In this document: positions 1,368 through 17,345 of the stretch, piece after piece | How the letters are laid out: each line of letters begins with the position of its first letter | Numbering within the stretch: the stretch's first letter is position 1 | Translations under genes and position numbers: made by a program | Assembly (NCBI GenBank): GCA_028700355.1 | Contig: JAQVSX010000001.1 | Span: 1-17,345, forward strand | From: Clostridia bacterium | GTDB taxonomy: Bacteria; Bacillota; Clostridia; Christensenellales; HGM11417 | Length of the DNA: 17,345 bases | Reading direction: 5' to 3' | Notes under the pieces: model-generated | What the model saw: only the letters and a program-made list of their open reading frames with translations | Told to the model about the DNA's origin: nothing | The model's database searches: none

Positions 1368-2489
1368 ATGGAAAAAGTAAAATTTGGAATAATTGGTTTT
1401 GGCAATATGGGAAGCAACCATGCCAACAGCTTTATAGAAAACAAAATAACAAACGGAATGCTTACCGCCGTGGCCGACAATGATATTAAAAAAATAGAAA
1501 GCGCTAAACAAAAATTGGGCGGTAATATTACCTATTTTAACAGCGCAGACGAGCTTATTTCGAGCGGCTTAACAGATGCCGTAATAGTCGCAACTCCACA
1601 TTATTCCCATTGCGGGATAAGCATAAACGCTTTAAACAGGGGTCTTAATGTTATATGCGAAAAGCCTGCCGGCGTTTACACAAAGCAGGTAGAAGAAATG
1701 AACAACGCTGCGGCAAAAGCCAAAGGGCTGTTTACGGTAATGTTTTGCCTCAGGGCAAACAGCCTTTATAAAAAAGTTAGCGAAATTGTAAGCGGCGGGG
1801 GCGTGGGAGAAATAAAAAGGGTAAATTGGCTTATTACCGATTGGTACCGCCCCCAAAGCTACTATAATTCAAGTACATGGCGTGCGACATGGAAGGGCGA
1901 AGGGGGAGGGGTGCTGTTAAATCAGTGTCCCCATCAGATTGACCTTTTAATATGGATAACAGGAATGGTGCCCAAAAAAGTCAGGGCGTTTTGCCGTTTC
2001 GGAAAATGGCATGATATAGAGGTTGAAGACGACGTTACCGCCTATTTTGAATACGAAAACGGCGCAAGCGGAGTTTTTGTAACATCAACGGCGGACAGCC
2101 CCGGCACAAACAGGCTGGAAATTTTGGGAACAAAGGGCAAGGTTGTATGCGAAAAAGGGCAAATAACCTATTACAAATTGAAACAGGATGAAAGGGAATT
2201 TAATAAAGAATTTAAAGGCTTTATGGGCGAACCGGCATATGACATTATACCCGTTGAGCATGACGGCAAAAACCCTCTGCACGCTGCCATAATAAATAAT
2301 TTTGCAAATGCAGTAAAAGGTGCAGAGCCCTTGTTTATAGACGGCAGGGAAGGTTATAAAAGCGTTCAATTGTTAAATGCCATGCTCCTTTCATCATGGC
2401 TTGATAAGACGGTTAAAATACCTTTTGACGATGATTTATATCTGTCCATGCTTGAGGAAAGGATAAGGCGTTCTGAAAAAACAAATTAA
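1368..2489 (+). CDS. Gfo/Idh/MocA family NAD(P)-dependent sugar oxidoreductase (paralogue 1)
   Basis: This 373-residue cytoplasmic dehydrogenase acts on sugars or cyclitols. The N-terminal Rossmann fold shows GxGxxG (GFGNMG, residues 10-15). The family EKP motif is at 98-100 with K99 as the conserved active-site lysine. The HxxD motif, H189 and D192 in CPHQID, supplies the other catalytic and substrate residues. The C-terminal half is the usual alpha/beta dimer domain. Length is typical for the longer members. It is strikingly similar, roughly 60-70% by eye and almost without gaps, to the protein encoded at 7900-9069, so the two arose by duplication. The reaction is unknown. A plausible role is oxidation or reduction of a glycoside or amino-sugar hydroxyl, since a NagB/TIM-barrel fusion follows. 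The family is certain but the substrate cannot be inferred. Confidence 0.9.
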   Translation: MEKVKFGIIGFGNMGSNHANSFIENKITNGMLTAVADNDIKKIESAKQKLGGNITYFNSADELISSGLTDAVIVATPHYSHCGISINALNRGLNVICEKPAGVYTKQVEEMNNAAAKAKGLFTVMFCLRANSLYKKVSEIVSGGGVGEIKRVNWLITDWYRPQSYYNSSTWRATWKGEGGGVLLNQCPHQIDLLIWITGMVPKKVRAFCRFGKWHDIEVEDDVTAYFEYENGASGVFVTSTADSPGTNRLEILGTKGKVVCEKGQITYYKLKQDEREFNKEFKGFMGEPAYDIIPVEHDGKNPLHAAIINNFANAVKGAEPLFIDGREGYKSVQLLNAMLLSSWLDKTVKIPFDDDLYLSMLEERIRRSEKTN

Positions 2490-2514
2490 TTTTTTTGTTT
2501 TATTGTTGTAAAAG

Positions 2515-2543
2515 TTGATGCTGCTAACCGTAACGGTTAAATT
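2515..2543 (+). promoter_or_regulatory. Candidate promoter with a palindromic operator in the spacer
   Basis: TTGATG (2515-2520, 4 of 6 to the -35 consensus) is separated by exactly 17 bases from TAAATT (2538-2543, 4 of 6 to the -10 consensus). The spacer holds a perfect inverted repeat, TAACCGT-A-ACGGTTA (2525-2539), that also touches the -10 box. This arrangement is typical of repressor operators, for instance LacI-type regulators of sugar operons. It sits in the 81-base gap before the NagB fusion gene. The boxes are weak and no cognate regulator lies in the window. Confidence 0.4.
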
Positions 2544-2570
2544 CATAACAACATCATTATACGGTATTAT

Positions 2571-4187
2571 ATGAGCTTAATTAAAAAAATAAATTCGGAC
2601 AATCTTAATGTCGGCGTTTATTCTTCACGGAAAGAAATGGGGTCAGAGGCTGCAAGGCATTGTGCAAAGATTATTAAAAAATTATTAAATGAAAAAGAGA
2701 ATATAAATATGCTGTTTGCTGCGGCGCCTTCCCAAAATGAATTTCTAAGCTCTTTAATTAATGAAAGCGGTATACAATGGGAAAGGATAAGGGCTTTCCA
2801 TATGGATGAATATATCGGTTTATGCGCAGACGCGCCCCAGAGCTTTGGTAATTTTTTGAATAACGCCGTTTTTTCAAAGGTTTGTTTTAAAGAAATATTT
2901 TATATCAAAAGCAAAGGCAGCGCGGAAGAACAGTGTAAAAGGTATGAAAGCCTTATTAAGCAATATCCAATAGATTTGGCTTGCATTGGCATAGGAGAAA
3001 ACGGGCATATAGCTTTTAACGACCCTCACGAAGCGGATTTTAACGACAGAAAAACTGTAAAGATTGTTAATCTTGATGATATCTGCAGAAACCAGCAGGT
3101 TAATGACGGATGTTTCAAAAATTTGGATTCCGTTCCGAAACAGGCAATTACGCTTACAATACCCGCAATAACAAATGCACCATATATTATTTGCACGGTG
3201 CCCGCTGCTTCAAAAGCAAATGCGGTTTTTAACACCGTTCGGGGCAAAATAGGGGAAAACTGCCCTGCTTCAATATTGAGGGCTCATAAAAATACTGAAA
3301 TGTTTTGCGATATTTACAGTGCCAAACATATTTTGTTCAGGAAATCGGTAATTACCGATGAAATTTCACAGGATTTTGAAACGGCCGTAAAGCTTGCAAA
3401 AAAATACAATCTTGAAGGTGTTGAAATCCGCTCAGTTTGGGACACTGCGCCCGAGGCATTATCCGAAGAACAGATAAGCCGAATAAATAATATACTTGAA
3501 CAAAACGGATTAAAGGCCGTAGGACTCAGTTCTTCTATTTTCAAATGCAATGTCAAAGAGGATGAAACAATAAAAATAGAAAAAAGCATTAATGTCGCAA
3601 AAAAATTGGGGTGCAAATATATCAGGTGCTTCAGTTTTTGGAAAGACAATAATTACAGCGATGACATGTTTACAGAGATACTTAAAGGCTGTGAAGATAA
3701 ATTGAGGGATAACGGGCTTATAATGCTTTTAGAATTTGACCCTGCCGTAAACATAACCAACGGCAGGTCTTCTGCTAGGCTGTTGAAAAGGCTGAATTCT
3801 CCCTTTATTCAGGCCATTTGGGATCCGGGCAACGATATATACGAACCTTTTAAAGAGATACCTTATCCCGACGGCTATAATCTGATTAAACCTTTTATAA
3901 GGCACATACATATAAAAGACGCTGTAAAAAAAGAGGGCAAAACCGTTGGTGTTGCTTTCGGAAAAGGGGAAGTTGATTATAAAGGTCAGTTAAAGGCGCT
4001 TTTAAATGACAATTATGACGGCTTTGTGTCCATGGAAACACATTACAAAAAAGAAATTGCCATAAGTGAAAAAATGCTTAAGAATCCCGGCGGAAAAGAA
4101 TTCTCCTATCTTGGTTATGAATCTACTGAGGAATGCCTGCAAAATCTTGATGGGTTGATTGATTTAATAATGGAAGAAACCGTTTAA
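2571..4187 (+). CDS. Fusion: variant NagB-like deaminase/isomerase domain plus xylose-isomerase-like TIM barrel
   Basis: This 538-residue protein has two enzyme domains. Residues about 1-255 are NagB-like (glucosamine-6-phosphate deaminase fold), with HMDEYIGL (D79, E80) and GIGENGHIAFNDP. They lack the canonical TGGTP phosphate loop, which is replaced by AAAPSQNEFL. The glutamate of the usual FNEP is aspartate. This AAPSQNEFL variant occurs as a recognisable subfamily whose substrate is, to my knowledge, not settled. Residues about 262-538 form a sugar phosphate isomerase/epimerase (AP endonuclease 2-like) barrel. Its putative metal ligands are Glu in LLEFDP, Asp in IWDPGND, His in HIHIKDA and Glu in SMETHY. 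Canonical NagB is about 240-260 residues and stands alone, so the fusion is unusual. The start lacks a good Shine-Dalgarno, but the next in-frame ATG (residue 22) would cut into the conserved MGSEAA region. The NagA gene begins 1 base after the stop. Confidence 0.85.
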   Translation: MSLIKKINSDNLNVGVYSSRKEMGSEAARHCAKIIKKLLNEKENINMLFAAAPSQNEFLSSLINESGIQWERIRAFHMDEYIGLCADAPQSFGNFLNNAVFSKVCFKEIFYIKSKGSAEEQCKRYESLIKQYPIDLACIGIGENGHIAFNDPHEADFNDRKTVKIVNLDDICRNQQVNDGCFKNLDSVPKQAITLTIPAITNAPYIICTVPAASKANAVFNTVRGKIGENCPASILRAHKNTEMFCDIYSAKHILFRKSVITDEISQDFETAVKLAKKYNLEGVEIRSVWDTAPEALSEEQISRINNILEQNGLKAVGLSSSIFKCNVKEDETIKIEKSINVAKKLGCKYIRCFSFWKDNNYSDDMFTEILKGCEDKLRDNGLIMLLEFDPAVNITNGRSSARLLKRLNSPFIQAIWDPGNDIYEPFKEIPYPDGYNLIKPFIRHIHIKDAVKKEGKTVGVAFGKGEVDYKGQLKALLNDNYDGFVSMETHYKKEIAISEKMLKNPGGKEFSYLGYESTEECLQNLDGLIDLIMEETV

Positions 4188-4188
4188 A

Positions 4189-5361
4189 ATGGATAAAATA
4201 ACATTTAAAAATGCCAAGGTAATATACGATGATAGATTTGCCGAAGGCGGTATCACAATTGAAAAAGGAAAGATAAAAAGCCTTGAAACAGATTATACCT
4301 GCAGTAATATTGTTGACTGCTCGGGCAATTATCTTTCAGCCGGTTTTATTGATATGCATCTGCACGGCGGGGGCGGAAGCGATTTCATGGACGGTACAGT
4401 CAAGGCATATGAAAACATTGTTAGCTCGCATATAAAACACGGTACTACAAGTTTTGCGCCTACTGTGCTTGGCAGCAGTCACGAGGAAATAATGACCGCA
4501 ATTAATACATATAAACAGGCGAAAAAACTTTCCCATTTAAATAATAAGCTTTTAGGAATCCATCTGGAAGGCCCTTATATATCTAAAAACCAAATCGGCG
4601 CCCAGCCGGAAAAACATGTAAGAATTCCTGAACCTGAAGAATATGAAAAAATTGCAGAAACCGGAGGGAAAGACATAATACGCTGGAGTGTGGCGCCTGA
4701 ACTGGAAGGTATGGAAAAATTTTCCTGTTATATAAAAGAGCGCGGCATACTTCTTTCAATTGCGCATTCGGATGCTGATTATAATCAGGTAGTGCAGGCG
4801 TTTAAAGAAGGTTTTTCGCTTATTACGCATCTTTATTCTGCTACTTCAACAATAAAAAGAGTCAACGGTTTCAGAGTAGCCGGCATAATCGAAAGCGCAT
4901 ATTTAATAGACGATATGGATGTTGAAATTATAGCTGACGGATGTCATTTGCCCGAAAGCCTTTTAAAATTAGTCTGTAAATTCAAGAATATTAATAGGAT
5001 AGCTCTTATTACAGATGCTATGAGGGCTGCCTGCCAGAATGTTAAAAAATCGTTTTTAGGAAAAGAGGGTACGGGAGTTGAAGTAATTATTGAAGACGGT
5101 GTAGCTAAATTAAAAGATAAAAGCTCATTTGGAGGAAGCATAGCTACTGCCGACAGGCTTATAAGAACAATGATAAATTCAGATACAGGCATAAATTTAT
5201 TTCAGGCAGTAAATATGATGACAAAAAATCCTGCAAGAATGTTAAATATTGATAATAAGATAGGAGCAATAAAAATCGGATACGATGCCGATATTGTTGT
5301 TTTTGATGATAACATAAATATAAAGAAAGTCTACTCAAAAGGTGTAGAACAAAACATGTAA
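4189..5361 (+). CDS. nagA: N-acetylglucosamine-6-phosphate deacetylase (NagA)
   Basis: The protein has 390 residues, the normal NagA length, and is a cytoplasmic amidohydrolase-superfamily TIM barrel. NagA removes the acetyl group of GlcNAc-6-phosphate to give glucosamine-6-phosphate, the substrate of NagB. Visible motifs are H57-x-H59 in DMHLHGGGG, E127 in HLEGPY, H193 in AHSDAD, H214 in THLYSA, a DGCH motif at 250-253, and catalytic D276 in LITDAM. The full set of binuclear-metal residues is present, as in the Bacillus type and unlike the E. coli enzyme. The usual THLFNAM is THLYSAT here, so the phosphate/N-acetyl contact may differ. The gene starts 1 base after the NagB-fusion stop and is probably translationally coupled to it. 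Together they suggest an amino sugar or a derivative as a substrate. The family is secure, though exact specificity is less so because the partner NagB domain is atypical. Confidence 0.85.
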   Translation: MDKITFKNAKVIYDDRFAEGGITIEKGKIKSLETDYTCSNIVDCSGNYLSAGFIDMHLHGGGGSDFMDGTVKAYENIVSSHIKHGTTSFAPTVLGSSHEEIMTAINTYKQAKKLSHLNNKLLGIHLEGPYISKNQIGAQPEKHVRIPEPEEYEKIAETGGKDIIRWSVAPELEGMEKFSCYIKERGILLSIAHSDADYNQVVQAFKEGFSLITHLYSATSTIKRVNGFRVAGIIESAYLIDDMDVEIIADGCHLPESLLKLVCKFKNINRIALITDAMRAACQNVKKSFLGKEGTGVEVIIEDGVAKLKDKSSFGGSIATADRLIRTMINSDTGINLFQAVNMMTKNPARMLNIDNKIGAIKIGYDADIVVFDDNINIKKVYSKGVEQNM

Positions 5362-5401
5362 AGCTTAAAAACCTTAATAATAAACATTAAAATTAATTAA
5401 A

Positions 5402-5413
5402 GTAAATATTTAC
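5402..5413. promoter_or_regulatory. 12-bp perfect palindrome before the GH13 gene
   Basis: GTAAATATTTAC is a perfect palindrome in the 56-base gap between nagA and the GH13 gene, ending 4 bases before the first ATG (5418). It lies where a ribosome binding site would be expected, so a protein bound here could block transcription. It is AT-rich, and a chance palindrome cannot be excluded. Confidence 0.25.
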
Positions 5414-5432
5414 AAATATGGAAAGAATCAGA

Positions 5433-7061
5433 ATGAAAAATTGGATAAATAAAGCAGTATTATATCAGATATATCCCACCTCGTTTTATGACGGTAACAA
5501 AGACGGAATAGGCGATTTTAAGGGAATAACTGAAAAATTGAAATATGTGAAGGATCTGGGGGTGAATGCAATATGGTTAAACCCCTTTTACAAGTCACCG
5601 TTTATGGATGGCGGCTACGATATCGAGGATTACTGTTCGGTGGACGAGCGTTTTGGCACGCTTGAGGATTTCGATTATTTTGTTTCCGAAGCCAAGCGTT
5701 TAAAACTGAAAATAATTATTGACCTCGTAATCGGGCATACCTCAGATAAACATCCCTGGTTTATCGAATCTGCGAAAGATGAAAAGAACAGGTATTCAGA
5801 TTATTATATCTGGACGGATAGCATTTTCAACAAATACAAAGATAAAACGATACACGGTTTGTATGAACGCAACGGCGGTTATTACGTTAATTATTACGCA
5901 TGTCAGCCGGCGTTAAATTACGGTTTTAACAATGCGGGTAAAGCGAAGGCTAATGATAATAATAACTACGATATAGGCGACGGTTGGAAAATGCGCTATA
6001 CAGACGAACGTCTTTCGCCCCTCCGAAAAGAAATATACGACATTATCCGATATTGGATGGTGCGCGGAGTGGACGGCTTCAGGGTGGATATGGCCAATTC
6101 TCTTGTTAAGGACTGTATTTATGATTCTGCAGACGAAAAAAACATAGAAGGCTTAATCTGGCTTTGGCGCAAAATGTTATCAAAAATGAGAAAGGAATTC
6201 CCTGATATCATATTTGTATCCGAATGGGTGAATCCGATAAACGCCGTGGAAAAGTGCGGATTTGATATAGATTTTTTGGCGCACGATATTCCGTGCTATA
6301 ATTCGCTCTTCAGAAACGAAAAAGGAAGTAATCTGCTTCCAAGTTTTGAAAGGGGCTATAATTATTTTTCCGAAGGCGGCAGAGGAAATGTAAATGAATT
6401 TATAGAATATACATTAATGCTGAATGAACATTTGAACGGTAAAGGATATTTTTCTGCCCCGTCAGGCAGCCACGATCAGATAAGACTTGCGGCAAACAAG
6501 ACAGAAGGCCAGATGAAGGTGATTTTCTCATTTTTGCTGACGTATAAGCATATACCGTTTATTTATTACGGAGACGAAATAGGCATGACGCATAATTTCT
6601 CGGCAAATAAAGACGGAGGTTTTATACGTACAGGTGCAAGAACTCCCATGCAATGGACAAACGGAAAAAACCGGGGTTTCTCAGATAACGATGTCATTTA
6701 TTTACCTGTAAATAACGATATTCGCCAATCTGTGGAATCGCAGGTTGCAGACGAGAATTCCTTGCTTAATACCGTAAAAAATCTTATCTCATTGAGAAAG
6801 CGGTATCCCTGCTTTGCGGTTGATGCTGAAATTAAAATAATTAAATGTGAAAACGGCGGATATCCGCTTGTTTTTGAAAGAAAAAGCGTTTGCGACAGCG
6901 CGCTAATATTAATTAATCCGTCAAATAATGAATTGGATTATGTAATAGACGAAGGCTATAATGTTGTGATGTCACATAATTGCGAATTTAAGGGTGAAAA
7001 AGTAAAAATACACGGCGTTAGCTTTTTAATAATGCATAAATCGGAGGTAACATGGAAATAA
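5433..7061 (+). CDS. GH13 alpha-glucosidase (oligo-1,6-glucosidase-like)
   Basis: The 542-residue cytoplasmic glycoside hydrolase of family 13 has no signal peptide. It hydrolyses alpha-linked glucosides such as isomaltose, sucrose, trehalose-like or phosphorylated forms; the exact substrate is open. The start MKNWINKAVLYQIYP is the standard N-terminus of this group, so 5433 is preferred over the in-frame ATG at 5418, which adds only MERIR. A GGAAAGA at 5420-5426 fits 5433. Catalytic residues are nucleophile D219 (GFRVDMA), acid/base E264 (VSEWVNP) and stabiliser D348 (GSHDQ). The last motif is SHD where most members have NHD. The DGNKDGIGDFKGI loop and MQWTNGKNRGF near the C-terminal part are typical. 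Length matches the family. The neighbouring enzymes suggest it releases monosaccharide from an imported oligosaccharide. It overlaps the next gene by 10 bases. Confidence 0.9.
   Translation: MKNWINKAVLYQIYPTSFYDGNKDGIGDFKGITEKLKYVKDLGVNAIWLNPFYKSPFMDGGYDIEDYCSVDERFGTLEDFDYFVSEAKRLKLKIIIDLVIGHTSDKHPWFIESAKDEKNRYSDYYIWTDSIFNKYKDKTIHGLYERNGGYYVNYYACQPALNYGFNNAGKAKANDNNNYDIGDGWKMRYTDERLSPLRKEIYDIIRYWMVRGVDGFRVDMANSLVKDCIYDSADEKNIEGLIWLWRKMLSKMRKEFPDIIFVSEWVNPINAVEKCGFDIDFLAHDIPCYNSLFRNEKGSNLLPSFERGYNYFSEGGRGNVNEFIEYTLMLNEHLNGKGYFSAPSGSHDQIRLAANKTEGQMKVIFSFLLTYKHIPFIYYGDEIGMTHNFSANKDGGFIRTGARTPMQWTNGKNRGFSDNDVIYLPVNNDIRQSVESQVADENSLLNTVKNLISLRKRYPCFAVDAEIKIIKCENGGYPLVFERKSVCDSALILINPSNNELDYVIDEGYNVVMSHNCEFKGEKVKIHGVSFLIMHKSEVTWK
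7043..7047 (+). promoter_or_regulatory. Strong Shine-Dalgarno inside the end of the GH13 gene
   Basis: GGAGG lies 4 bases before the ATG at 7052 and is embedded in the last codons of the GH13 gene. It confirms that the overlapping TIM-barrel gene is genuinely translated from 7052. Confidence 0.7.
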
Positions 7062-7912
7062 GATTATGTGCTTTTGCGGACGAGGCAGGGAAATTACTGT
7101 CTGAACAAATATCCGCGCTTAAAAGAAACAAAATCTATTTAATTGAAATACGCAGTGTTGACGGTATTAATATAAAGGATATCAAATTGGGACGCGCTGC
7201 GCAAATAGCTGACAAACTGAAAGAAGAAGGTTTAGAAGTCTGGTCAATAGGCTCACCTTTGGGAAAGGTTAAGATAACCGATGATTTTAATGAGGAAAAG
7301 GAAAGGCTTAGGCATATTTTAGAGCTTTGCAAAATTTTTCATTGCAATAAAATAAGGGTATTCAGCTTTTTTACCAAAGATTATGATAAGTACAGAAATG
7401 AAGTTTTTGCGCGTTTACAGGAAATGGTTGATATATCCGGGCAGGACAATGTTTTACTTTATCATGAGAACGAGAAAGAAATATATGGGGATAATGCAAA
7501 ACGCGTTAAGGATTTATTGGAAAATGTTAAAGGGTTGCAAAGTATATATGACCCGGCAAACTATATTCAGATAGGCGAAGATACCGATACTGCAATAAAA
7601 GAAGTATTGCCATATGCCGGTTATCTGCATATAAAGGATGCGTTATACCGCACAGGAATAGTGGTATTGCCCGGAGCGGGTGATGGAAAAATTCAGGAAT
7701 TGCTTTCACGGATTGAACAAGATACCGTGCTTAGCATAGAACCTCATTTAAAAGTATTCGTAGGGTACAATGCAATTGACAATCATGAATTAAAAGGAAA
7801 TTTCATATATAAATCAAACGGAGAAGCTTTTGATGCGGCGGTAATTTCGCTGAAAAATATTTTAATTAAGCTTGGTTTTATGGAGATAGGCGGCGGCATA
7901 TGGAAAAAATAA
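7052..7912 (+). CDS. Sugar phosphate isomerase/epimerase-like TIM barrel (xylose isomerase-like)
   Basis: The 286-residue protein belongs to the AP endonuclease 2/xylose isomerase-like TIM-barrel superfamily, which isomerises, epimerises, dehydrates or eliminates on keto-sugars using a divalent metal. Putative metal ligands are Glu in VLLYHENE, Asp in IYDPANY, His in YLHIKDA and Glu in LSIEPHL. All four are intact. The N-terminus (CAFADEAG) and the VEIRS-like strand (LIEIRSVDG) match the C-terminal domain of the fusion encoded at 2571-4187 (VEIRSVWD; RCFSFW versus RVFSFF), so the two are homologous within the locus. The gene overlaps the GH13 gene by 10 bases and the following Gfo dehydrogenase by 13 bases, which implies tight translational coupling. 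It probably works on the keto-sugar product of the adjacent dehydrogenase. That partnership is inferred from position, and no specific reaction can be named. Confidence 0.85.
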   Translation: MEIRLCAFADEAGKLLSEQISALKRNKIYLIEIRSVDGINIKDIKLGRAAQIADKLKEEGLEVWSIGSPLGKVKITDDFNEEKERLRHILELCKIFHCNKIRVFSFFTKDYDKYRNEVFARLQEMVDISGQDNVLLYHENEKEIYGDNAKRVKDLLENVKGLQSIYDPANYIQIGEDTDTAIKEVLPYAGYLHIKDALYRTGIVVLPGAGDGKIQELLSRIEQDTVLSIEPHLKVFVGYNAIDNHELKGNFIYKSNGEAFDAAVISLKNILIKLGFMEIGGGIWKK

Positions 7913-9069
7913 AATTCGGCATTATTGGCTATGGCAGTATGGGAAGTTCACATGCATCCAGACTGTATTCAGGTCTTATTGAAAACGGAACTCTTGCCGC
8001 GATAGCTGATATAGATAAATCAAAGGTTGATAAGGCACGTGTAAAGTTTGGCGAAAACATATTGTTTTTTGATACTGCCAAAGCTCTCATAATAAGCGGA
8101 TGCGTTGACGCTGTGATTGTCGCCACACCGCATTACAGCCATCCGGAAATATGCATGGAAGCGCTGAAAGAGGGGCTTAACGTAATATGCGAAAAGCCGG
8201 CTGGGGTATATACAAAGCAAGTACTTGAGATGAACGAAGCTGTGTCAAATTCAAAAGGTTTATTTACGGTTATGTTTAACCAGCGTACCAACTGCTTATA
8301 CAGAAAAATGCGCGAAACCGTACTGGGCGGCGGAATAGGGGAGGTAAAGCGGATAAATTGGCTTATAACCAACTGGTACCGCAGCCAAAGTTATTATGAT
8401 TCGAGCGATTGGCGCGCGACGTGGTCAGGCGAGGGCGGGGGCGTGCTTGTAAACCAATGCCCGCACCAGTTAGACCTGCTCCAATGGGTAACGGGGATGA
8501 TGCCTTCAAAAATAAGGGCATTCTGCCATTTCGGCAAATGGCACAATATAGAAGTTGAGGATGATGTAACGGCATACCTCGAATATGAAAACGGCGCTAC
8601 GGGGGCATTTATCACTTCAACTGCGGACTGCCCGGGAACGAATAGGTTTGAGATACTGGGCACTTCAGGCAAGATGGTATGCGAAAACGATAAACTTGAA
8701 TATTATAAGCTCAGCACTGACGAGAGAGAATTTAACAGGACCTATACGGGCGGTTTCGGCGAGCCTGAAGTCACAAAACCCAGCTTGGAGACAGATGGTA
8801 AAAATCCCCAGCATGCAGGCATAATAAATAATTTTGCAAATGCGGTATTAGGATTGGAGCCGTTATTTGTGGACGGCAGGGAAGGTATAAACAGCGTGCG
8901 GATAATGAATGCGATGCTACTTTCAACATGGCTTGATAAAACTGTAGAATTACCCTTTGACGATAACTTATATTACGAAGAACTTAAAAAACGTATAGCA
9001 ATATCCAAACCTAAAAATAAGGGTTCTGTAACCCTTGACGTATCAGGTACATACGGGGGAAGCAAATGA
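7900..9069 (+). CDS. Gfo/Idh/MocA family NAD(P)-dependent sugar oxidoreductase (paralogue 2)
   Basis: The 389-residue protein is a close paralogue of the one at 1368-2489, colinear almost throughout. It has the nucleotide-binding motif GYGSMG (10-15), E98-K99-P100 with the active-site lysine, and H189/D192 in CPHQLD. The two copies share the same positions for all key residues. They also share long identical runs such as WRATW and the GEGGGVL segment. The copy here has about 15 extra residues at the C-terminus (ending KNKGSVTLDVSGTYGGSK). The ribosome binding site is AGGCGG (7888-7893), within the upstream gene. It overlaps that gene by 13 bases and the next by 4 (ATGA at 9066-9069), so all three are likely made in step. 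The reaction is unknown, and dehydrogenation of a sugar or glycoside carbon is the family expectation. Keeping two similar copies suggests different substrates, or opposite directions of one redox cycle. Confidence 0.9.
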   Translation: MEKIKFGIIGYGSMGSSHASRLYSGLIENGTLAAIADIDKSKVDKARVKFGENILFFDTAKALIISGCVDAVIVATPHYSHPEICMEALKEGLNVICEKPAGVYTKQVLEMNEAVSNSKGLFTVMFNQRTNCLYRKMRETVLGGGIGEVKRINWLITNWYRSQSYYDSSDWRATWSGEGGGVLVNQCPHQLDLLQWVTGMMPSKIRAFCHFGKWHNIEVEDDVTAYLEYENGATGAFITSTADCPGTNRFEILGTSGKMVCENDKLEYYKLSTDEREFNRTYTGGFGEPEVTKPSLETDGKNPQHAGIINNFANAVLGLEPLFVDGREGINSVRIMNAMLLSTWLDKTVELPFDDNLYYEELKKRIAISKPKNKGSVTLDVSGTYGGSK

Positions 9070-10043
9070 AGGCGGCAATAATAGGCTGCGGAGCCATATC
9101 CCAAAGACACGCCGATGCGCTTAAAAAATGCGGTATTGAGATTGCGGCCCTTTGCGATGTAATACTGGGCAAAACTGGAAACCTTAAAGAAAGATATTTG
9201 TTAAGGTGTTCCGAATACACCGATTTTAAGGAAATGCTGGGTATGCAGAAAATTGACGCTGTGCATATATGCACGCCGCATTACCTTCACGCCGAAATGG
9301 CCGGGTATGCCCTTAAAAAGAATATTAACGTTCTTTTGGAAAAACCCGCCTGCATAAACGAAAAAGAAATTGAAATGCTGAGAGCGGCGCAGAAAGAATC
9401 GGGCGCCCAGCTTGGTGTTTGTTTTCAAAACAGGTATTTGGAAGGTATACAGACGGCAAAAAAATTTCTTAAGGATAAAAAAGTACAAGGTATTACCGGT
9501 ACTGTGTTATGGAGCAGGGATAAGGAATATTATACCCTGTCGGAATGGCGCGGCAGTAAACAGAAGGAAGGGGGCGGCGTTCTTATAAATCAGGCTATAC
9601 ATACCCTTGACCTTATGCAATGGCTTTCAGGAACGCCCGAATATATTACCGCAACGGTTTCCAACAGGCATTTAATAGGTGTTATTGACGTAGAGGATAC
9701 CGCCGAGTGTTATTGGGAAACCGAAAACGGCAGCGCCCTGCTGTACGCTACAACTGCCGGCAGCAGAAATTATCCTATAAATATAAAAATAGACGTGGGC
9801 GAACATCTGATTGAAATAGCAGGAGAAAACTGTGAAATAGACGGGATAAATTATTGCCGTATACAATCAGGAAAAACAGAAGGAAAAGATTATTGGGGTA
9901 TCGGGCATTATAACCTGATAAATGAATTTTACAATTGCATAAATGACGGCAAGAAATTCCCTATAGATATAGAAGAAGGGACAAAAGCGCTTAAAATGTT
10001 ATTCGCAATATACAAGTCAGAAGGACAAAAAGTCAAGGTTTAA
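9066..10043 (+). CDS. Gfo/Idh/MocA family oxidoreductase, short form
   Basis: This 325-residue third dehydrogenase is clearly more divergent and shorter than the two paralogues in the locus. It shows GCGAIS (7-12) as the nucleotide-binding loop, E92-K93-P94 with the family lysine, and H179/D182 in QAIHTLDLM. So it should be an active NAD(P)-dependent enzyme. The residues around the active site differ from those of the other two (WRGSKQKEGGGVL versus WRATW and GEGGGVL). That suggests a related but distinct substrate. It starts in the ATGA stop/start overlap of the previous gene and has GGGGGA (9055-9060) at good spacing. A tail-to-tail pair of Gfo enzymes could carry out oxidation and re-reduction of one sugar with a cleavage between. 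This is a hypothesis from gene order only. Confidence 0.88.
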   Translation: MKAAIIGCGAISQRHADALKKCGIEIAALCDVILGKTGNLKERYLLRCSEYTDFKEMLGMQKIDAVHICTPHYLHAEMAGYALKKNINVLLEKPACINEKEIEMLRAAQKESGAQLGVCFQNRYLEGIQTAKKFLKDKKVQGITGTVLWSRDKEYYTLSEWRGSKQKEGGGVLINQAIHTLDLMQWLSGTPEYITATVSNRHLIGVIDVEDTAECYWETENGSALLYATTAGSRNYPINIKIDVGEHLIEIAGENCEIDGINYCRIQSGKTEGKDYWGIGHYNLINEFYNCINDGKKFPIDIEEGTKALKMLFAIYKSEGQKVKV

Positions 10044-10068: not shown

Positions 10069-11112
10069 ATGAAAATGACGTTCCGCTGGTACGGGGAAAA
10101 GGATAGTATACCCTTACAGTACATAAAACAGATACCGGATATGAGCGGTGTGGTAACCGCGGTTTACGATACACTCGCCGGCGAGGCATGGAGCGAAAAC
10201 TCGGTAAGGCGCCTTAAAAGCCTTTGCACGTCTGCGGGGCTCGAGATGGAAGTAATAGAAAGCGTCCCTGTGCACGAGGATATTAAGGCAGGGGGCTGCA
10301 AACGGTATTATTACATAGAAAACTACTGTAAAAATATCCGTCTGCTTTCGCAGTACGGCGTGAAATGCATATGCTACAACTTTATGCCCGTATTCGATTG
10401 GGTAAGGACAAATTTAAAGACCAAAAATGCCGATGGCAGCACCAGTTTATCGTATGACCATCGGAATATATTAAAGCTTAACCCCGGAAGCCTTTCGCTC
10501 CCCGGCTGGGATGAAAGCTATACGAAAGAGCAGTTAAAGGGGCTTATGGAAATGTACAAGAATATTTCGAGGGAAAAGCTTTTTGAAAACCTTGTATATT
10601 TCCTTAAAAAGATTATACCCGTATGCGAGGAATGCGGTATAAATATGGCGGTACACCCCGATGACCCGCCTTGGGACATTTTCGGTTTGCCGAGGATAGT
10701 ATCGACAGAAAAAGATCTAGACTGGCTGTTTTCGGCCGTGCCGTCAAAGCGCAACGGCCTTACGTTCTGCACGGGCTCATTGGGAGCAGGCATGTTTAAC
10801 GATTTAAGCCATATGGCGGAAAAATATTCGAGGCAGGGCAGGGTGCATTTTGCCCATTTAAGGAATATAAGGTATATTGGAGAAAGCAGCTTTTCCGAGA
10901 CCGCGCATCCCACTAATTGCGGAAGCCTTGATATGTACGGAATAGTAAAGGCGCTTGTAGATAATGGTTTTGACGGATATGTGCGCCCCGACCACGGCAG
11001 GAACATATGGGGCGAAAAAGGCAAACCGGGATACGGTTTATTTGACAGGGCATTGGGGGCGGTGTATCTTAACGGATTATTTGAAGCAGCGGAAAAGAAG
11101 AAATTAAAATGA
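10069..11112 (+). CDS. uxuA: Mannonate dehydratase (UxuA)
   Basis: The 347-residue UxuA-type D-mannonate dehydratase (EC 4.2.1.8) converts D-mannonate to 2-keto-3-deoxy-D-gluconate in hexuronate (glucuronate) catabolism, in the cytoplasm. Recognisable signatures are the N-terminal MTFRWYGEKD, YNFMPVFDWVRTNL, AVHPDDPPWDIFGLPR, LTFCTGSLGAG, HFAHLRN and RPDHGR. Together these carry the metal-binding His, Cys and Asp residues of the family. Length is standard. GGGAG (10054-10058) precedes the start by 10 bases. The stop overlaps the start of the following SDR gene as ATGA (11109-11112). No uronate isomerase (UxuC) or KDG kinase/aldolase lies in the window, so those steps must be encoded elsewhere if glucuronate is the source. 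The assignment is confident. Confidence 0.93.
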   Translation: MKMTFRWYGEKDSIPLQYIKQIPDMSGVVTAVYDTLAGEAWSENSVRRLKSLCTSAGLEMEVIESVPVHEDIKAGGCKRYYYIENYCKNIRLLSQYGVKCICYNFMPVFDWVRTNLKTKNADGSTSLSYDHRNILKLNPGSLSLPGWDESYTKEQLKGLMEMYKNISREKLFENLVYFLKKIIPVCEECGINMAVHPDDPPWDIFGLPRIVSTEKDLDWLFSAVPSKRNGLTFCTGSLGAGMFNDLSHMAEKYSRQGRVHFAHLRNIRYIGESSFSETAHPTNCGSLDMYGIVKALVDNGFDGYVRPDHGRNIWGEKGKPGYGLFDRALGAVYLNGLFEAAEKKKLK

Positions 11113-11939
11113 AATTACCATTTGTTGTAGATTTAAGTGATAAAATAATAGCAATTACGGGTGGCGGCGGAGTTTTAATGAGTGAATTCGGAAAAGCTTT
11201 GGCCGAATGCGGAGCAAAGGTAGCCCTTTTGGATGTAAACGAAAAGGCAGTAAAAGAGCAGGCTGAAAATATAGGCAACAATGCATTTCCGGTTATCTGT
11301 AACTGCCTTGATAAAAACAGTATAGTAAACGCAAAAAAAGAGATTGAGCAAAAATTAGGCAAGGTTAATTTTTTAATAAACGGCGCAGGCGGAAACAGCC
11401 CTAAAGCAACGACAGATAACGAATATATGTATCCTGAAACGGAAAACATAAAGGATTTTTTTAAGCTTGACGAAGGCGGAATAAAACTTGTGTTTGATTT
11501 AAATATTATGACAGCCTTTTTGGTAACACAGGTATTTGCTGAAGATATGGTAAAGACAGGCGGAAATATAATAAATATTTCTTCTATGAACGCATATAAA
11601 CCGCTTACCAAAATACCCGCGTACAGTGCTGCAAAGGCAGGTGTTTCAAACTTAACAAAGTGGCTTGCCGTTCATTTTGCACCATGTAACATAAGGGTAA
11701 ACGCAATAGCTCCGGGTTTTTTTGTAACAAATCAGAACAAAGAACTGCTTTTTGATAAAAACGGCAATCTTACAGAGCGTTCAAATAAAATATTAAACCA
11801 TACGCCTTTAAACCGTTTTGGTAATATAGAAGATTTAACAGGCACTCTTTTATGGCTTGCAAGCGATAATGCAAGTGGTTTTGTAACGGGAACTATAATA
11901 CCCGTTGACGGCGGATTTTCCGCTTATAGTGGAGTATGA
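11109..11939 (+). CDS. SDR-family D-mannonate oxidoreductase (fructuronate reductase type)
   Basis: The 276-residue classical short-chain dehydrogenase/reductase has the cofactor motif TGGGGVL (17-23), NGAGG around residue 95, catalytic S159, and YxxxK with Y172 and K176. The insert with YMYPETENIKDFFKLDEGG and the C-terminal PVDGGF are characteristic of the SDR that interconverts D-fructuronate and D-mannonate. In Firmicutes and Thermotoga it commonly sits beside uxuA and replaces the unrelated E. coli UxuB. The 4-base overlap with uxuA supports this: fructuronate is reduced to mannonate here and dehydrated by UxuA. A role on a related ketose such as a 3-keto sugar acid is possible but less likely. 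The ribosome binding site is weak (GGAAAAGAAG), consistent with coupling to uxuA. It ends about 100 bases before the next gene and is probably the last gene of this transcription unit. Confidence 0.85.
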   Translation: MKLPFVVDLSDKIIAITGGGGVLMSEFGKALAECGAKVALLDVNEKAVKEQAENIGNNAFPVICNCLDKNSIVNAKKEIEQKLGKVNFLINGAGGNSPKATTDNEYMYPETENIKDFFKLDEGGIKLVFDLNIMTAFLVTQVFAEDMVKTGGNIINISSMNAYKPLTKIPAYSAAKAGVSNLTKWLAVHFAPCNIRVNAIAPGFFVTNQNKELLFDKNGNLTERSNKILNHTPLNRFGNIEDLTGTLLWLASDNASGFVTGTIIPVDGGFSAYSGV

Positions 11940-13634: not shown

Positions 13635-14531
13635 ATGAATAAGGATATAACAGTATTAATAGGCGTAGATGTAGAAACGGATGTGGGCAGCTTTACTCCC
13701 TTTTATGAAGGCGTAAAAAAAGGTGTTCCTATACTGCTTGATATTTTTAAGGAGACAAAAATAAAAGCAACTTTTTACTTTACGGGAGAATCTGCGAAGA
13801 AAAATGCTGAAATTGCAAAAATGACGGCAAAGAGTGGTAACGAAGTAGGCTGTCATTCATTATATCATGAAACGGTAGGGGACGAACTTTTTCCCATACC
13901 GGGGGTAAAACCCCTATTGCCTTTTGAGGTTGAATCAAGATTAAAACTTGCAACCGAGTGGGTACAAGAGGCAAGCGGTATAAGACCGATATCATTCAGA
14001 TGTCCCCGTCTTTGGGGCAGTACCGCTGTAATAAACGCGTTGGAAAAGCTAGGCTACACAAGCGACGCCTCATATCCAATGTATTTTTATAGAGAACAAT
14101 TTGCGCCATATTATCCTTCAAGAGAGGACTGGACAAAAACAGGAGACAGTGCAGTTTTAGAAATACCCAATTTTGCCGATATGGTTATGAAAAGCAACGA
14201 CAGTCCCTTAGAGCGTGACCGAGATCAATGGCCGCAGTTCAGAACAGAGGGCGCTGAATTTGTGCTTAAAAAAATAGAAGGCTTTGTAAACTTTTTAAAA
14301 CAAAAAGATTTGCCTGCCGTTGTATGTCTATATATTCACCCGTGGGAGTTTATACCATGCAAAAAAAGTTACTATTTCGGAGAAGCAACTGTAATACCCG
14401 ATGAATTTATAATAAAAAATACAGGCGATAAAGCAATAACGGAGCTTAAAAAACTGATTAAAGGATTAAAAGCTATAGGCGCAGAGTTTAATACGGCAAA
14501 AGATATTGTGCAAATGTGGAAAGAGCAATGA
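13635..14531 (+). CDS. CE4/PgdA-like polysaccharide deacetylase
   Basis: The 298-residue protein of the NodB/CE4 deacetylase superfamily is closest in layout to the cytoplasmic HpPgdA-like branch (about 290 residues, no signal peptide). The metal site is visible as D12 and E14 in GVDVETD, with H74 and H78 in CHSLYHE. In HpPgdA the second acidic residue is Asp, but DVE is common elsewhere in the superfamily. Further family features are KATFYFTGESAK, SFRCPRLWGS and the C-terminal IHPWEF histidine. It should hydrolyse an N-acetyl, formyl or related C-N bond on a sugar or small molecule. Without a signal peptide, an intracellular oligosaccharide is a better target than cell-wall peptidoglycan. 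AAGG (13624-13627) precedes the ATG. The stop codon overlaps the next gene start as ATGA (14528-14531). The family is confident and the substrate is open. Confidence 0.85.
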   Translation: MNKDITVLIGVDVETDVGSFTPFYEGVKKGVPILLDIFKETKIKATFYFTGESAKKNAEIAKMTAKSGNEVGCHSLYHETVGDELFPIPGVKPLLPFEVESRLKLATEWVQEASGIRPISFRCPRLWGSTAVINALEKLGYTSDASYPMYFYREQFAPYYPSREDWTKTGDSAVLEIPNFADMVMKSNDSPLERDRDQWPQFRTEGAEFVLKKIEGFVNFLKQKDLPAVVCLYIHPWEFIPCKKSYYFGEATVIPDEFIIKNTGDKAITELKKLIKGLKAIGAEFNTAKDIVQMWKEQ

Positions 14532-16693
14532 ATTTACCCGAAGTTAAAAAAATAAAAAATTTACCGTTAAATTTTCCTAAAAATTGGCAGGCGGTAATAT
14601 TCCGCAATTACGGAATTGTACCCGTAAAAAATATAGCTCAAATATTAAATACCGATGAAAATACAATAAATACAGAGGCGGTAAATTTAGGGCTTTCAAA
14701 TGTAAAATATAATAAAAACTGGCTTAGCAAAGGTTATATTTCAATAATCAGAAACAACTGGCATCTATTGTCTTACATACAGATTACACAGCTTTTGTGT
14801 ATAAGCAAACAGCATCTTGCTTTTATATTAAAGGAAGATGATTTTTTAGATGTAAAGCTGGGGAATTTTAAGCCATATGTTATTGAGCCTAAATATTCAC
14901 CGTTAAATAATGAGCAAAAAAAACAAACTAAAAAAATAAAAAATATTGTTGAATCGTATTATATACCATATCAAAAACAGCCCTTTGATTTTTTTGATAA
15001 AAATATTAATTCATATAATAATAACTTTAATAATGAATCAATAAAAGGCCGTATAATATACAGCTATTTTGCGTTATATGGGGACAGTCTCGCAAGCGGG
15101 GACAACGAATCTTATCCCGACTACCTTCTTCAAAGATATGCTAATTTAAATATAAACGGCATATGGCTTCAAGGGTTATTGTACCAATTATCCGAATATC
15201 CGTTTGATAACAGCTTAAGCCACGGATATGAAAAAAGAAGGGAAAATCTTAATGCACTCATTAAAAGGTGTAAAAAATACGGCATTAAGGTATATTTGTA
15301 TTTTAACGAGCCGAGGGCAATGAACGAAGCTTTTTTTATAGGGAAAGAGGATATAAAAGGAGAGCAATTTGATGAACTGTATTCACTTTGTACATCAAAA
15401 AAGGTTGTTGGGGATTATCTTTATAACTCTATTAAAGATTTATTTTCAGCCTGTCCAGATTTAGGCGGCATGATAACAATAACAATGTCGGAAAATCTAA
15501 CGCATTGCTATTCAAAATCATATGACGGCAAATGCAATTGCCCTGTATGTAAAGAAAGGGAAGCTGAAGAGGTTGCCGCAGAAATAAACAACATCTTTTA
15601 TAATGCAGTTAAAGACAGCGGCAGCAAAGCAAAGGTTATAGCAAATCTTTGGGGCTGGGACGAGTTTATGAGGTGGGATATTGAAAAGACAAAAAAGGGC
15701 ATATCTTTACTTGATAAAAATATAGACATAATGCTTATTAGCGAAAACTGTATGAAAATAAATAAAGGCGGAATACAAAATACAATAATTGATTATTCCA
15801 TATCTAATGTCGGACCGAGTAATAGGTCAAAAATTTTGTTTAAATATGTAAAGGAACAAGGACATAATATATTTGCAAAGGTGCAAATAAACAATAGCTG
15901 GGAATGTTCCGCAGTTCCTTATATTCCTGTATTTGATTTAATAAAAAGGCATATAAACAACCTTAAAAATTTGAATATTGACGGTCTAATGCTAAGCTGG
16001 ACGGTGGGAGGGTATCCTGGAGGAGGTCTTAATTTTATATCCAATGGTTACGGCAGTGATAATTTCAATGAAGATAATTGGTACAGGGTTACATTTGGAA
16101 ATGAATATATAAAAATAAAAAAAGCTGTAAATTTGTTTTCGGAGGCTTTTGAAAATTTTCCCTTTGATTTAAATTTTTTATACAACGGTCCTCAAAATAT
16201 GGGTTGCGGTAATTTATGGTACGCTGAAAATACAAATTTAAAGTCTACAATGGTGGGATTCCCGTATGATGATATAGAAGGTTGGAGAGGCGAATACAGT
16301 AAAGAAATACTTGCAGACCAGCTAAAAAAACTATCAGATAAATGGAAAGAAGGGATTGATTTATTAGATATGGTAAAAGATGATAACAGTAATATTATAG
16401 AATTAAAAACAATAGCTAACGCCTGTTACGCACACTTTAACAGCAGTTATATGTTATGTGAATTTATATTAAAAAGAGAAGAATACAGTAATAGTAATGA
16501 TAAAAAAATAAGAGAAGAAATAAACAATATTATAGAGAAAGAAATACAAAATACATTGATACTGTATAAAGCTCAATCTCAAAACGCTTGCATAGGCTTT
16601 GAGGCAAGCAATCACTATTATTATAATGAAAACACATTGCTTGAAAAACTTGTTAATCTTAATAATTTAAAAGAATATTATTTGGAAAAATAA
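14528..16693 (+). CDS. Large glycosidase-like protein: HTH-like N-terminus, probable TIM barrel with Cys cluster
   Basis: This 721-residue protein has no signal peptide. I recognise the overall type but cannot name the family. Residues about 10-110 contain two helix-turn-helix-like segments (FRNYGIVPVKNIAQIL; RNNWHLLSYIQITQLL). Residues about 155-520 look like a TIM-barrel glycoside hydrolase, with NINGIWLQGLLY, KVYLYFNEPRAM, GMITITMSENLTHC, VIANLWGWDEF and LMLSWTVGGYPGG resembling successive strand ends. E322 is a candidate catalytic acid. C327, C336, C338 and C341 follow within 20 residues and could bind zinc. The last ~150 residues are charged and helical. Some GH20-like bacterial proteins share this plan, so a hexosaminidase-type role is possible but unproven. 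ATG 14528 overlaps the deacetylase stop as ATGA and is preferred over the in-frame GTG at 14516. The gene is the most AT-rich in the window. Confidence 0.7.
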   Translation: MNLPEVKKIKNLPLNFPKNWQAVIFRNYGIVPVKNIAQILNTDENTINTEAVNLGLSNVKYNKNWLSKGYISIIRNNWHLLSYIQITQLLCISKQHLAFILKEDDFLDVKLGNFKPYVIEPKYSPLNNEQKKQTKKIKNIVESYYIPYQKQPFDFFDKNINSYNNNFNNESIKGRIIYSYFALYGDSLASGDNESYPDYLLQRYANLNINGIWLQGLLYQLSEYPFDNSLSHGYEKRRENLNALIKRCKKYGIKVYLYFNEPRAMNEAFFIGKEDIKGEQFDELYSLCTSKKVVGDYLYNSIKDLFSACPDLGGMITITMSENLTHCYSKSYDGKCNCPVCKEREAEEVAAEINNIFYNAVKDSGSKAKVIANLWGWDEFMRWDIEKTKKGISLLDKNIDIMLISENCMKINKGGIQNTIIDYSISNVGPSNRSKILFKYVKEQGHNIFAKVQINNSWECSAVPYIPVFDLIKRHINNLKNLNIDGLMLSWTVGGYPGGGLNFISNGYGSDNFNEDNWYRVTFGNEYIKIKKAVNLFSEAFENFPFDLNFLYNGPQNMGCGNLWYAENTNLKSTMVGFPYDDIEGWRGEYSKEILADQLKKLSDKWKEGIDLLDMVKDDNSNIIELKTIANACYAHFNSSYMLCEFILKREEYSNSNDKKIREEINNIIEKEIQNTLILYKAQSQNACIGFEASNHYYYNENTLLEKLVNLNNLKEYYLEK

Positions 16694-17232: not shown

Positions 17233-17345
17233 ATGAGTAAAAGTATGAAAGAATCTTGGGAATGTTCTTTTTGCAAAAATATTATTAATGAGGCGGGAAA
17301 GATTGTTGAAGGTCCTGATGGACTTCATATTTGCGAAGAGTGTGT
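17233..17345 (+). CDS. N-terminal part of a protein with a ClpX-type C4 zinc finger (partial)
   Basis: The first 37 codons are visible before the window ends. They hold two CxxC pairs, C11-C14 in WECSFC and C34-C37 in HICEEC, around the GKIVEGPDG stretch. This is the zinc-binding domain found at the N-terminus of ClpX, the ATPase that feeds substrates to ClpP. The gap between the pairs is 19 residues, one more than the 18 of E. coli and Bacillus ClpX, and the KNIINEAG part is not standard. So this may be clpX or one of the smaller proteins that carry the same finger. AGGAG (17220-17224) lies 8 bases before the ATG. It follows a terminator and a promoter-like site, so it is not part of the sugar operon. 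Confidence 0.7.
   Translation, partial: MSKSMKESWECSFCKNIINEAGKIVEGPDGLHICEEC

Follow-up and report, generated by a model that had tools for sequence, protein, structure and literature searches.

We analyzed a window of 17,345 bases, the first and probably all of the bases of contig C176 in a draft genome (0.95 Mb, 75% complete) of a Clostridia bacterium, which carries two Gfo/Idh/MocA dehydrogenases, GfoA and GfoB, and two xylose-isomerase-like, metal-type TIM barrels, TIM-A and TIM-B. Comparison at the sequence level supports well the view that these proteins belong to a known kind of locus, one that attacks glucuronides by an oxidation-first route, here in a form that a gene fusion links to amino-sugar catabolism; the activities are predicted. 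We estimate a probability of about two in three that a glucuronide is degraded here through oxidation, elimination, hydration and reduction, and not by a glycosidase. The new element is the amino-sugar link through the gene fusion, in which TIM-A is joined to a NagB-like domain; literature searches, within the collection and terms used, found no publication on such a NagB-TIM fusion.

GfoA and GfoB group with a glucuronide-3-dehydrogenase

Open reading frames (ORFs) were called in the window, and Pfam and NCBIfam models were run on its proteins. GfoA (1365-2489) and GfoB (7900-9069), both on the + strand, are 66% identical across 373 residues. The top solved relative of each in a PDB search was 8tdi, the P2B11 glucuronide-3-dehydrogenase, with 291 bits for GfoA and 323 bits for GfoB, followed by 3q2i with 118 and 107.5 bits, respectively. 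A tree of 77 Gfo proteins united 8tdi, GfoA, GfoB and 36 relatives (39 rows) in one branch with 99/99 support, and a second tree, of GfoA homologues, again placed GfoA within the 8tdi clade. Since relatives were labeled as glucuronide-3-dehydrogenases (G3DH) by a score of at least 300 bits to GfoA or GfoB, the clustering of labeled rows is partly built in, and the real test in the Gfo tree is the position of 8tdi. K99 and H189 of GfoB (K100 and H190 of GfoA), which we take to be the expected catalytic Lys/His pair, are invariant in 39/39 clade rows. There is strong support for the assignment of GfoA and GfoB to the P2B11-type glucuronide-3-dehydrogenase clade, and NAD-dependent oxidation at C3 is predicted for them. 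A dehydrogenase of the glucuronide type occurs in 118 of the 391 genomes sampled from the class, the window's own genome counted.

GfoC (9066-10043, + strand), a short Gfo/Idh/MocA enzyme by Pfam, falls with 12 relatives into a separate 100/99 branch of the 77-protein tree and is proposed to be a 3-keto-glucuronate reductase. No NCBIfam model reached its cut-off for GfoA, GfoB or GfoC, and the best model for all three was inositol dehydrogenase IolG (TIGR04380), at 111.7, 107.5 and 101.5 bits, respectively. We rejected an identity as IolG because these scores are far under the cut-off of 355 and because GfoA and GfoB lie in the 8tdi clade.

Gene order of the locus

The ORF calls and the Pfam and NCBIfam matches confirmed the arrangement described in a first-pass annotation of this DNA, namely two Gfo paralogues, each of which has a homologous metal-type TIM barrel as its partner, with a third, short Gfo enzyme after them. 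TIM-B (7052-7912, + strand, PF01261) stands alone, and its 13-base overlap with GfoB is real (7900-7912). TIM-A (about residues 256-538) is the second half of the fusion protein (2571-4187, + strand), which begins with the NagB-like domain (about residues 1-255); Pfam matched PF01182 at residues 19-240 and PF01261 at residues 273-494. The fusion gene is followed by NagA of the N-acetylglucosamine-6-phosphate deacetylase family (4189-5361, + strand), which scored over the TIGR00221 cut-off (258.9 vs 225.65 bits). The anatomy given in the first-pass annotation was right; its coordinates end at 9069, and the unit continues through GfoC, the mannonate dehydratase UxuA (10069-11112; TIGR00695, 377 bits, cut-off 199.55) and a D-mannonate oxidoreductase-like short-chain dehydrogenase/reductase (SDR) of the PRK08277 type, which would take the role of UxuB (11109-11939; NF006132, 385.9 bits, cut-off 281). 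From GfoA to the SDR, all genes lie on the + strand and neighbors either overlap by at most 13 bases or are separated by gaps of 1-81 bases, as in one operon. Both the grouping of GfoA and GfoB with 8tdi and the UxuA and UxuB-like genes that follow support the idea that a uronic-acid glycoside is broken down by an oxidation-first route.

The TIM barrels

TIM-A and TIM-B are 24% identical across 243 residues (blastp E 2e-11), and a hidden Markov model (HMM) built from 102 TIM-B relatives detected the NagB-TIM fusion at 105 bits. They have a common active-site plan, which consists of D-E near the start, E-x-R, a strand-5 Glu, D..N, H-x-K-D and E-x-H. Two residues on from the strand-5 Glu there is an acid, in the sequence E-N-E in TIM-B and E-F-D in TIM-A. 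E139, D167, H193, E230 and H232 of TIM-B are conserved in 103/103 rows, the four expected metal-binding residues are kept in 103/103 TIM-B rows and 54/54 fusions, and residue 141 is an acid (E141 or D141) in 103/103 TIM-B rows, with D390 as its counterpart in TIM-A. The base for elimination in TIM-A and TIM-B would be a carboxylate or the strand-8 His. We rejected both barrels as C-glycoside eliminases of the DgpC or CarC type, since the acid replaces the catalytic His two residues after the strand-5 Glu, and as eliminases of the AtOGE/LgdB1 type, since they have E-N-E and E-F-D and not the H-x-H, D, H, E site.

No NCBIfam model matched TIM-B at 0.001. A sequence search of the PDB with TIM-B gave nothing at 1e-3 and only chance-level matches at 10, and a profile search found AsbF (7e-9) and Art22. 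The predicted model of TIM-B has a predicted local distance difference test score (pLDDT) of 91.6, and its Foldseek matches include YcjR, a 3-keto-D-glucoside 4-epimerase (6wn6, E 7e-10, 18% identity). The first-pass annotation had allowed that the TIM barrels might instead cluster with inositol- or hydroxypyruvate-isomerase families, or that the Gfo enzymes might act only on free inositol or similar polyols. This was not seen: next to the low IolG scores of the dehydrogenases, the hydroxypyruvate isomerase model gave 21 bits on the fusion against a cut-off of 353.

A third barrel, TIM-C, accompanies TIM-B in many relatives. TIM-C of the related locus L010 matches AtOGE (8bvk) at 3.9e-15, and its H127, H129, D157, H183 and E233, invariant in 79/79 TIM-C proteins, correspond to the active-site residues of AtOGE, which is described as a Mn-dependent O-glycoside β-eliminase with the residues H132, H134, D163, H189 and E233 (PMC10628242).

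Neighborhoods in related genomes

An alignment scan of named genomes with TIM-B detected 478 relatives, and we kept the best 80 loci, which are seeded on TIM-B; gene labels in all loci came from our own ORF calls with phmmer and HMM thresholds. TIM-B itself was labeled in 73 of the best 80, the rest falling below the label threshold or length. The other labels were G3DH-type dehydrogenase (69), TIM-C (56), UxuA (38), SDR (38), GfoC (36), UxuC (24), and NagB, NagA and GH13 once each. A frequent gene order was TIM-B, TIM-C, G3DH, GfoC, UxuC, UxuA and SDR, and UxuC was confirmed by Pfam in L010. In L039, a glucuronyl esterase-type gene (PF22244, 156 bits; 8833-9996) lies directly upstream of a TIM-B/TIM-C/G3DH operon. 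This operon also contains a rhamnosidase-type gene, and a gene of the lacto-N-biose phosphorylase family (GH112) was seen downstream of UxuC-UxuA-SDR in L003 (15406-17613).

We also sampled 40 of about 137 places centered on the dehydrogenase outside the window's own genome, hand-picked down to about the 85th row. These loci contained TIM-B in 26 cases, TIM-C in 22, GfoC in 13, NagA in four and NagB in one. The first-pass annotation had called for a survey of the conservation of the Gfo/TIM pair, and a barrel of the TIM-A, TIM-B or TIM-C type was indeed present in 36 of the 40, compared with one TIM barrel and no Uxu gene in 20 control stretches, which were contig starts (and one inner stretch) of the same genomes, several of them shorter than 18.5 kb. 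The pairing is therefore more than chance. Together, the counts indicate that dehydrogenase and TIM barrel are generally linked, that the link to glucuronate genes is frequent but not universal, and that a link to NagB is rare in these operons. By analogy, the operons of the relatives fit a scheme of oxidation, elimination, hydration and reduction with a glucuronide as the substrate and glucuronate as the product.

Proposed pathway

From the gene content, clade membership, neighborhoods and fusions that we observed, we infer a route in which GfoB, and perhaps GfoA, would oxidize C3 of the glucuronosyl residue with NAD. A metal-dependent TIM barrel, either TIM-B or TIM-A of the fusion, could then remove the C2 proton and expel the aglycone from C1. 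Hydration of the resulting glycal would give 3-keto-glucuronate, which GfoC or GfoB may reduce to glucuronate with regeneration of NAD, and UxuC, the UxuB-like SDR and UxuA would lead from there to 2-keto-3-deoxygluconate. TIM-B is proposed to serve as a lyase, a hydratase or both. Together with NagA, the NagB-TIM fusion would form an amino-sugar arm, in which the aglycone, probably an N-acetylhexosamine (HexNAc), would be phosphorylated and passed to NagA and NagB. Our guess for the substrate is a glucuronyl-HexNAc unit, unless the amino-sugar genes form a parallel branch.

Several observations weigh against this route. The window has no TIM-C ORF, and the TIM-C HMM gave only matches of 20 and 17 bits on the tested stretches of the window's own genome, including the other PF01261 hits; either TIM-A or TIM-B must eliminate here, or the TIM-C gene is absent from the draft. 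The comparison of barrel structures with known lyases, proposed in the first-pass annotation, could be made at the level of the fold, but it does not separate a lyase from an isomerase. Searches of the draft genome found no PF01081 aldolase, no EIIC of the phosphotransferase system and only two weak ROK matches. UxuA or UxuC was near only 7 of the 40 dehydrogenase-centered loci. A NagB-like gene was found in only 1/40 dehydrogenase loci and 1/80 TIM-B loci, and the amino-sugar arm is thus no standing part of the glucuronide operon. As for the remaining steps, the draft genome holds one PfkB kinase, and its UxuC (PF02614) is a fragment at the end of contig C21 (3618 bases), where 37 of 464 positions are covered. 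With UxuC cut by the contig end and PF01081 and EIIC not found, the onward routes cannot be traced in full in this draft. The first-pass annotation had the GH13 enzyme encoded inside the operon (5418-7061, + strand; PF00128, 266 bits) act on the remaining α-glucoside, but the gene context in relatives does not support a role in the pathway, with a GH13 match in only one of the 80 related loci.

Oxidation-first cleavage sidesteps glycosidases and, with them, glycosidase inhibitors and glycosidase annotation. Should the assignment prove right, many genomes of Clostridia could provide for the release of glucuronides without a β-glucuronidase. These glucuronides might perhaps be glycosaminoglycan-like units, and drug and steroid glucuronides would be an extrapolation. 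The NagB fusions offer a compact handle on whether oxidation-first chemistry reaches amino sugars.

Comparison with known systems

The P2B11 dehydrogenase reportedly belongs to an oxidation/elimination pathway for glycans from a Nature 2024 study. GfoA and GfoB fall into its sequence clade with the Lys and His conserved, and the TIM barrels that accompany such dehydrogenases in relatives match 8tcs, 8tcd and 8tct, presumably lyases/hydratases from the same study as 8tdi. The window differs in lacking TIM-C and in having two dehydrogenases of the clade, the NagB-TIM fusion, NagA and an altered pocket motif in GfoA. The levoglucosan system is described as two oxidoreductases and two 'sugar phosphate isomerases' (LgdA, LgdB1, LgdB2 and LgdC) that oxidize, eliminate, hydrate and reduce; the full path is covered by the 3-dehydrogenase, a Gfo reductase and a pair of dissimilar TIM-annotated proteins, one of which partly does both elimination and hydration (PMC7676230). 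The present locus resembles it in the two oxidoreductases and two dissimilar TIM proteins but differs in substrate and dehydrogenase clade, and uronate or amino-sugar genes are not described in the available text of that paper (PMC7676230). Unlike the Agrobacterium system of the O-glycoside eliminase AtOGE and the hydratase AtHYD, the window has no such eliminase, and AtHYD, which ranks 14th, shares only 14% identity with TIM-B.

The C-glycoside system DgpA/DgpC (PuCGE, CarC type) is alike in its Gfo oxidation followed by a metal-dependent TIM-barrel eliminase, and the first-pass annotation had taken it as a model. It is not supported as such, because DgpA is not the closest relative (57 and 53 bits for 7xr9 and 61 and 60 for DgpA2, 9m37, with GfoB and GfoA, vs 323 and 291 for 8tdi) and because TIM-A and TIM-B have an acid instead of the His two past the strand-5 metal Glu. 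The likeness to common NagA/NagB catabolism lies in the NagA score and in the fold and phosphate-site residues of NagB, whereas the NagB of the window belongs to a divergent subfamily whose fusion partners are TIM, dehydrogenase or NagA proteins.

A departure from the pocket motif

An F-N-Q-R motif follows the strand leading into the sugar-binding domain of the clade members. It was found in 124/124 clade-member ORFs of one set and in 119/120 GfoA homologues of another, the sole exception being GfoA itself with FCLR, while GfoB has the usual FNQR. Four dehydrogenases fused to NagB, which are one close lineage, have FCVR. In the tree of GfoA homologues, GfoA sits amid FNQR relatives and the four stand together on a distant branch (100/100), so two separate origins are the simplest account of the change; judged by these alignments, the almost invariant 'NQ' pair appears to have been lost independently in GfoA and in the NagB-fused dehydrogenases. 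A further 64 ORFs, from genomes that overlap with the earlier sets, had NQR in 61 cases, NTR in one, which adjoins TIM-C, and LMR in two, which have no TIM or NagB neighbor among the gene labels. Departures are therefore rare, and three of their four kinds accompany other partners, in small numbers. Each of the two FLMR dehydrogenases (L319, 8473-9612; L320, 8367-9503) stands beside an ORF that, by eye, starts like a DeoR-type regulator.

A bolder reading, which we consider rather less likely than not, is an amino-sugar branch of non-hydrolytic glycoside cleavage, with NagB-like domains sharing polypeptides with 3-keto-glycoside dehydrogenases and with lyase/hydratase TIM barrels. C3 oxidation and elimination would free or rework an amino sugar for deamination, and the dehydrogenase pocket would have changed anew from NQ to C-[LV] in two lineages or more.

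Alternative explanations

It is conceivable, if somewhat unlikely, that the operon serves two parallel pathways, one with GfoB, TIM-B, GfoC, UxuA and the SDR for glucuronides and the other with a retuned GfoA, the NagB-TIM fusion and NagA for an amino-sugar glycoside, which would be compatible with the core of the glucuronide route. GfoA alone among the 39 clade rows deviates at N127, Q128 and T130, and the same C-x-R change occurs on the distant branch of the NagB-fused dehydrogenases. NagA, NagB, Gfo and TIM also come together in 11 of 59 stretches centered on NagB/TIM-A, mostly without UxuA (4/59); this set leaves out at least the hits of G364, G405 and G701 as well as L148, the genome's own UxuC contig. 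However, GfoA is still close to GfoB and within the 8tdi clade, the single lineage of the fused four leaves only two events, the Gfo genes adjoining NagB in other loci are mostly outside the clade, and the NagB-bearing locus L041 keeps NQR in its clade member. An unlikely explanation is that NagA and the NagB domain perform ordinary N-acetylglucosamine-6-phosphate catabolism and have no more than the operon and the polypeptide in common with the glucuronide enzymes, the fusion being without mechanistic meaning. The NagB half retains D79, H146, R173, K215 and the deaminase fold, and NagA is above its cut-off. Against it, NagB-like domains are fused in both orders to TIM-A, to TIM-B-type barrels, to a G3DH-type dehydrogenase and to NagA, the NagB half misses TIGR00502 (129.6 vs 236.9), and the Glu of the NEP motif in the aligned solved NagB is replaced by Asp in 54/54 fusions.

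The YcjR match of TIM-B and the lack of an AtOGE-like eliminase in the window would also suit TIM-A and/or TIM-B as YcjR-like epimerases of 3-keto sugars, by which stereoisomeric glycosides were interconverted and not cleaved, a reading we consider quite doubtful. Catabolism of inositol or another polyol, or sugar-nucleotide metabolism, is highly improbable. Among the NCBIfam models, IolG scores best on each of the three Gfo proteins, and 3q2i and 3q2k, which rank next in the PDB search, are WlbA enzymes that likewise oxidize C3 of a uronic-acid sugar. The scores are nevertheless far under the IolG cut-off, 8tdi outscores the next chain two- to threefold in bits, and glucuronate genes adjoin.

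Other features of the window and the genome

The NagB subfamily is, among the matches listed, also joined to PF02522, PF00356 and PF06245 domains (P0226, P0228 and P0231), the domain-joining counts being based on 120 of 609 hits. A stand-alone second NagB with 162 bits to the window domain lies near another Gfo gene on contig C137 of the same genome (L199; 3053-3823 and 4827-5927). Upstream of GfoA, a URO-D-like protein (93-1301, + strand; URO-D family, 61 bits) is encoded, for which no match was found among the gene labels of the 80 related TIM-B loci. Scans for promoters (63 vs a shuffled mean of 56.8) and terminators (21 vs 14.1 shuffled) were not used as evidence, the former being near the shuffled mean. 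The SDR is followed on the + strand by an M24 peptidase, an ASRT-family protein, a polysaccharide deacetylase and a 725-residue protein (14516-16693), which matches no Pfam family even at E 5, save for a sub-threshold match. The window ends within the start of an ORF (17233-17345) that by eye resembles the zinc-binding domain of ClpX.

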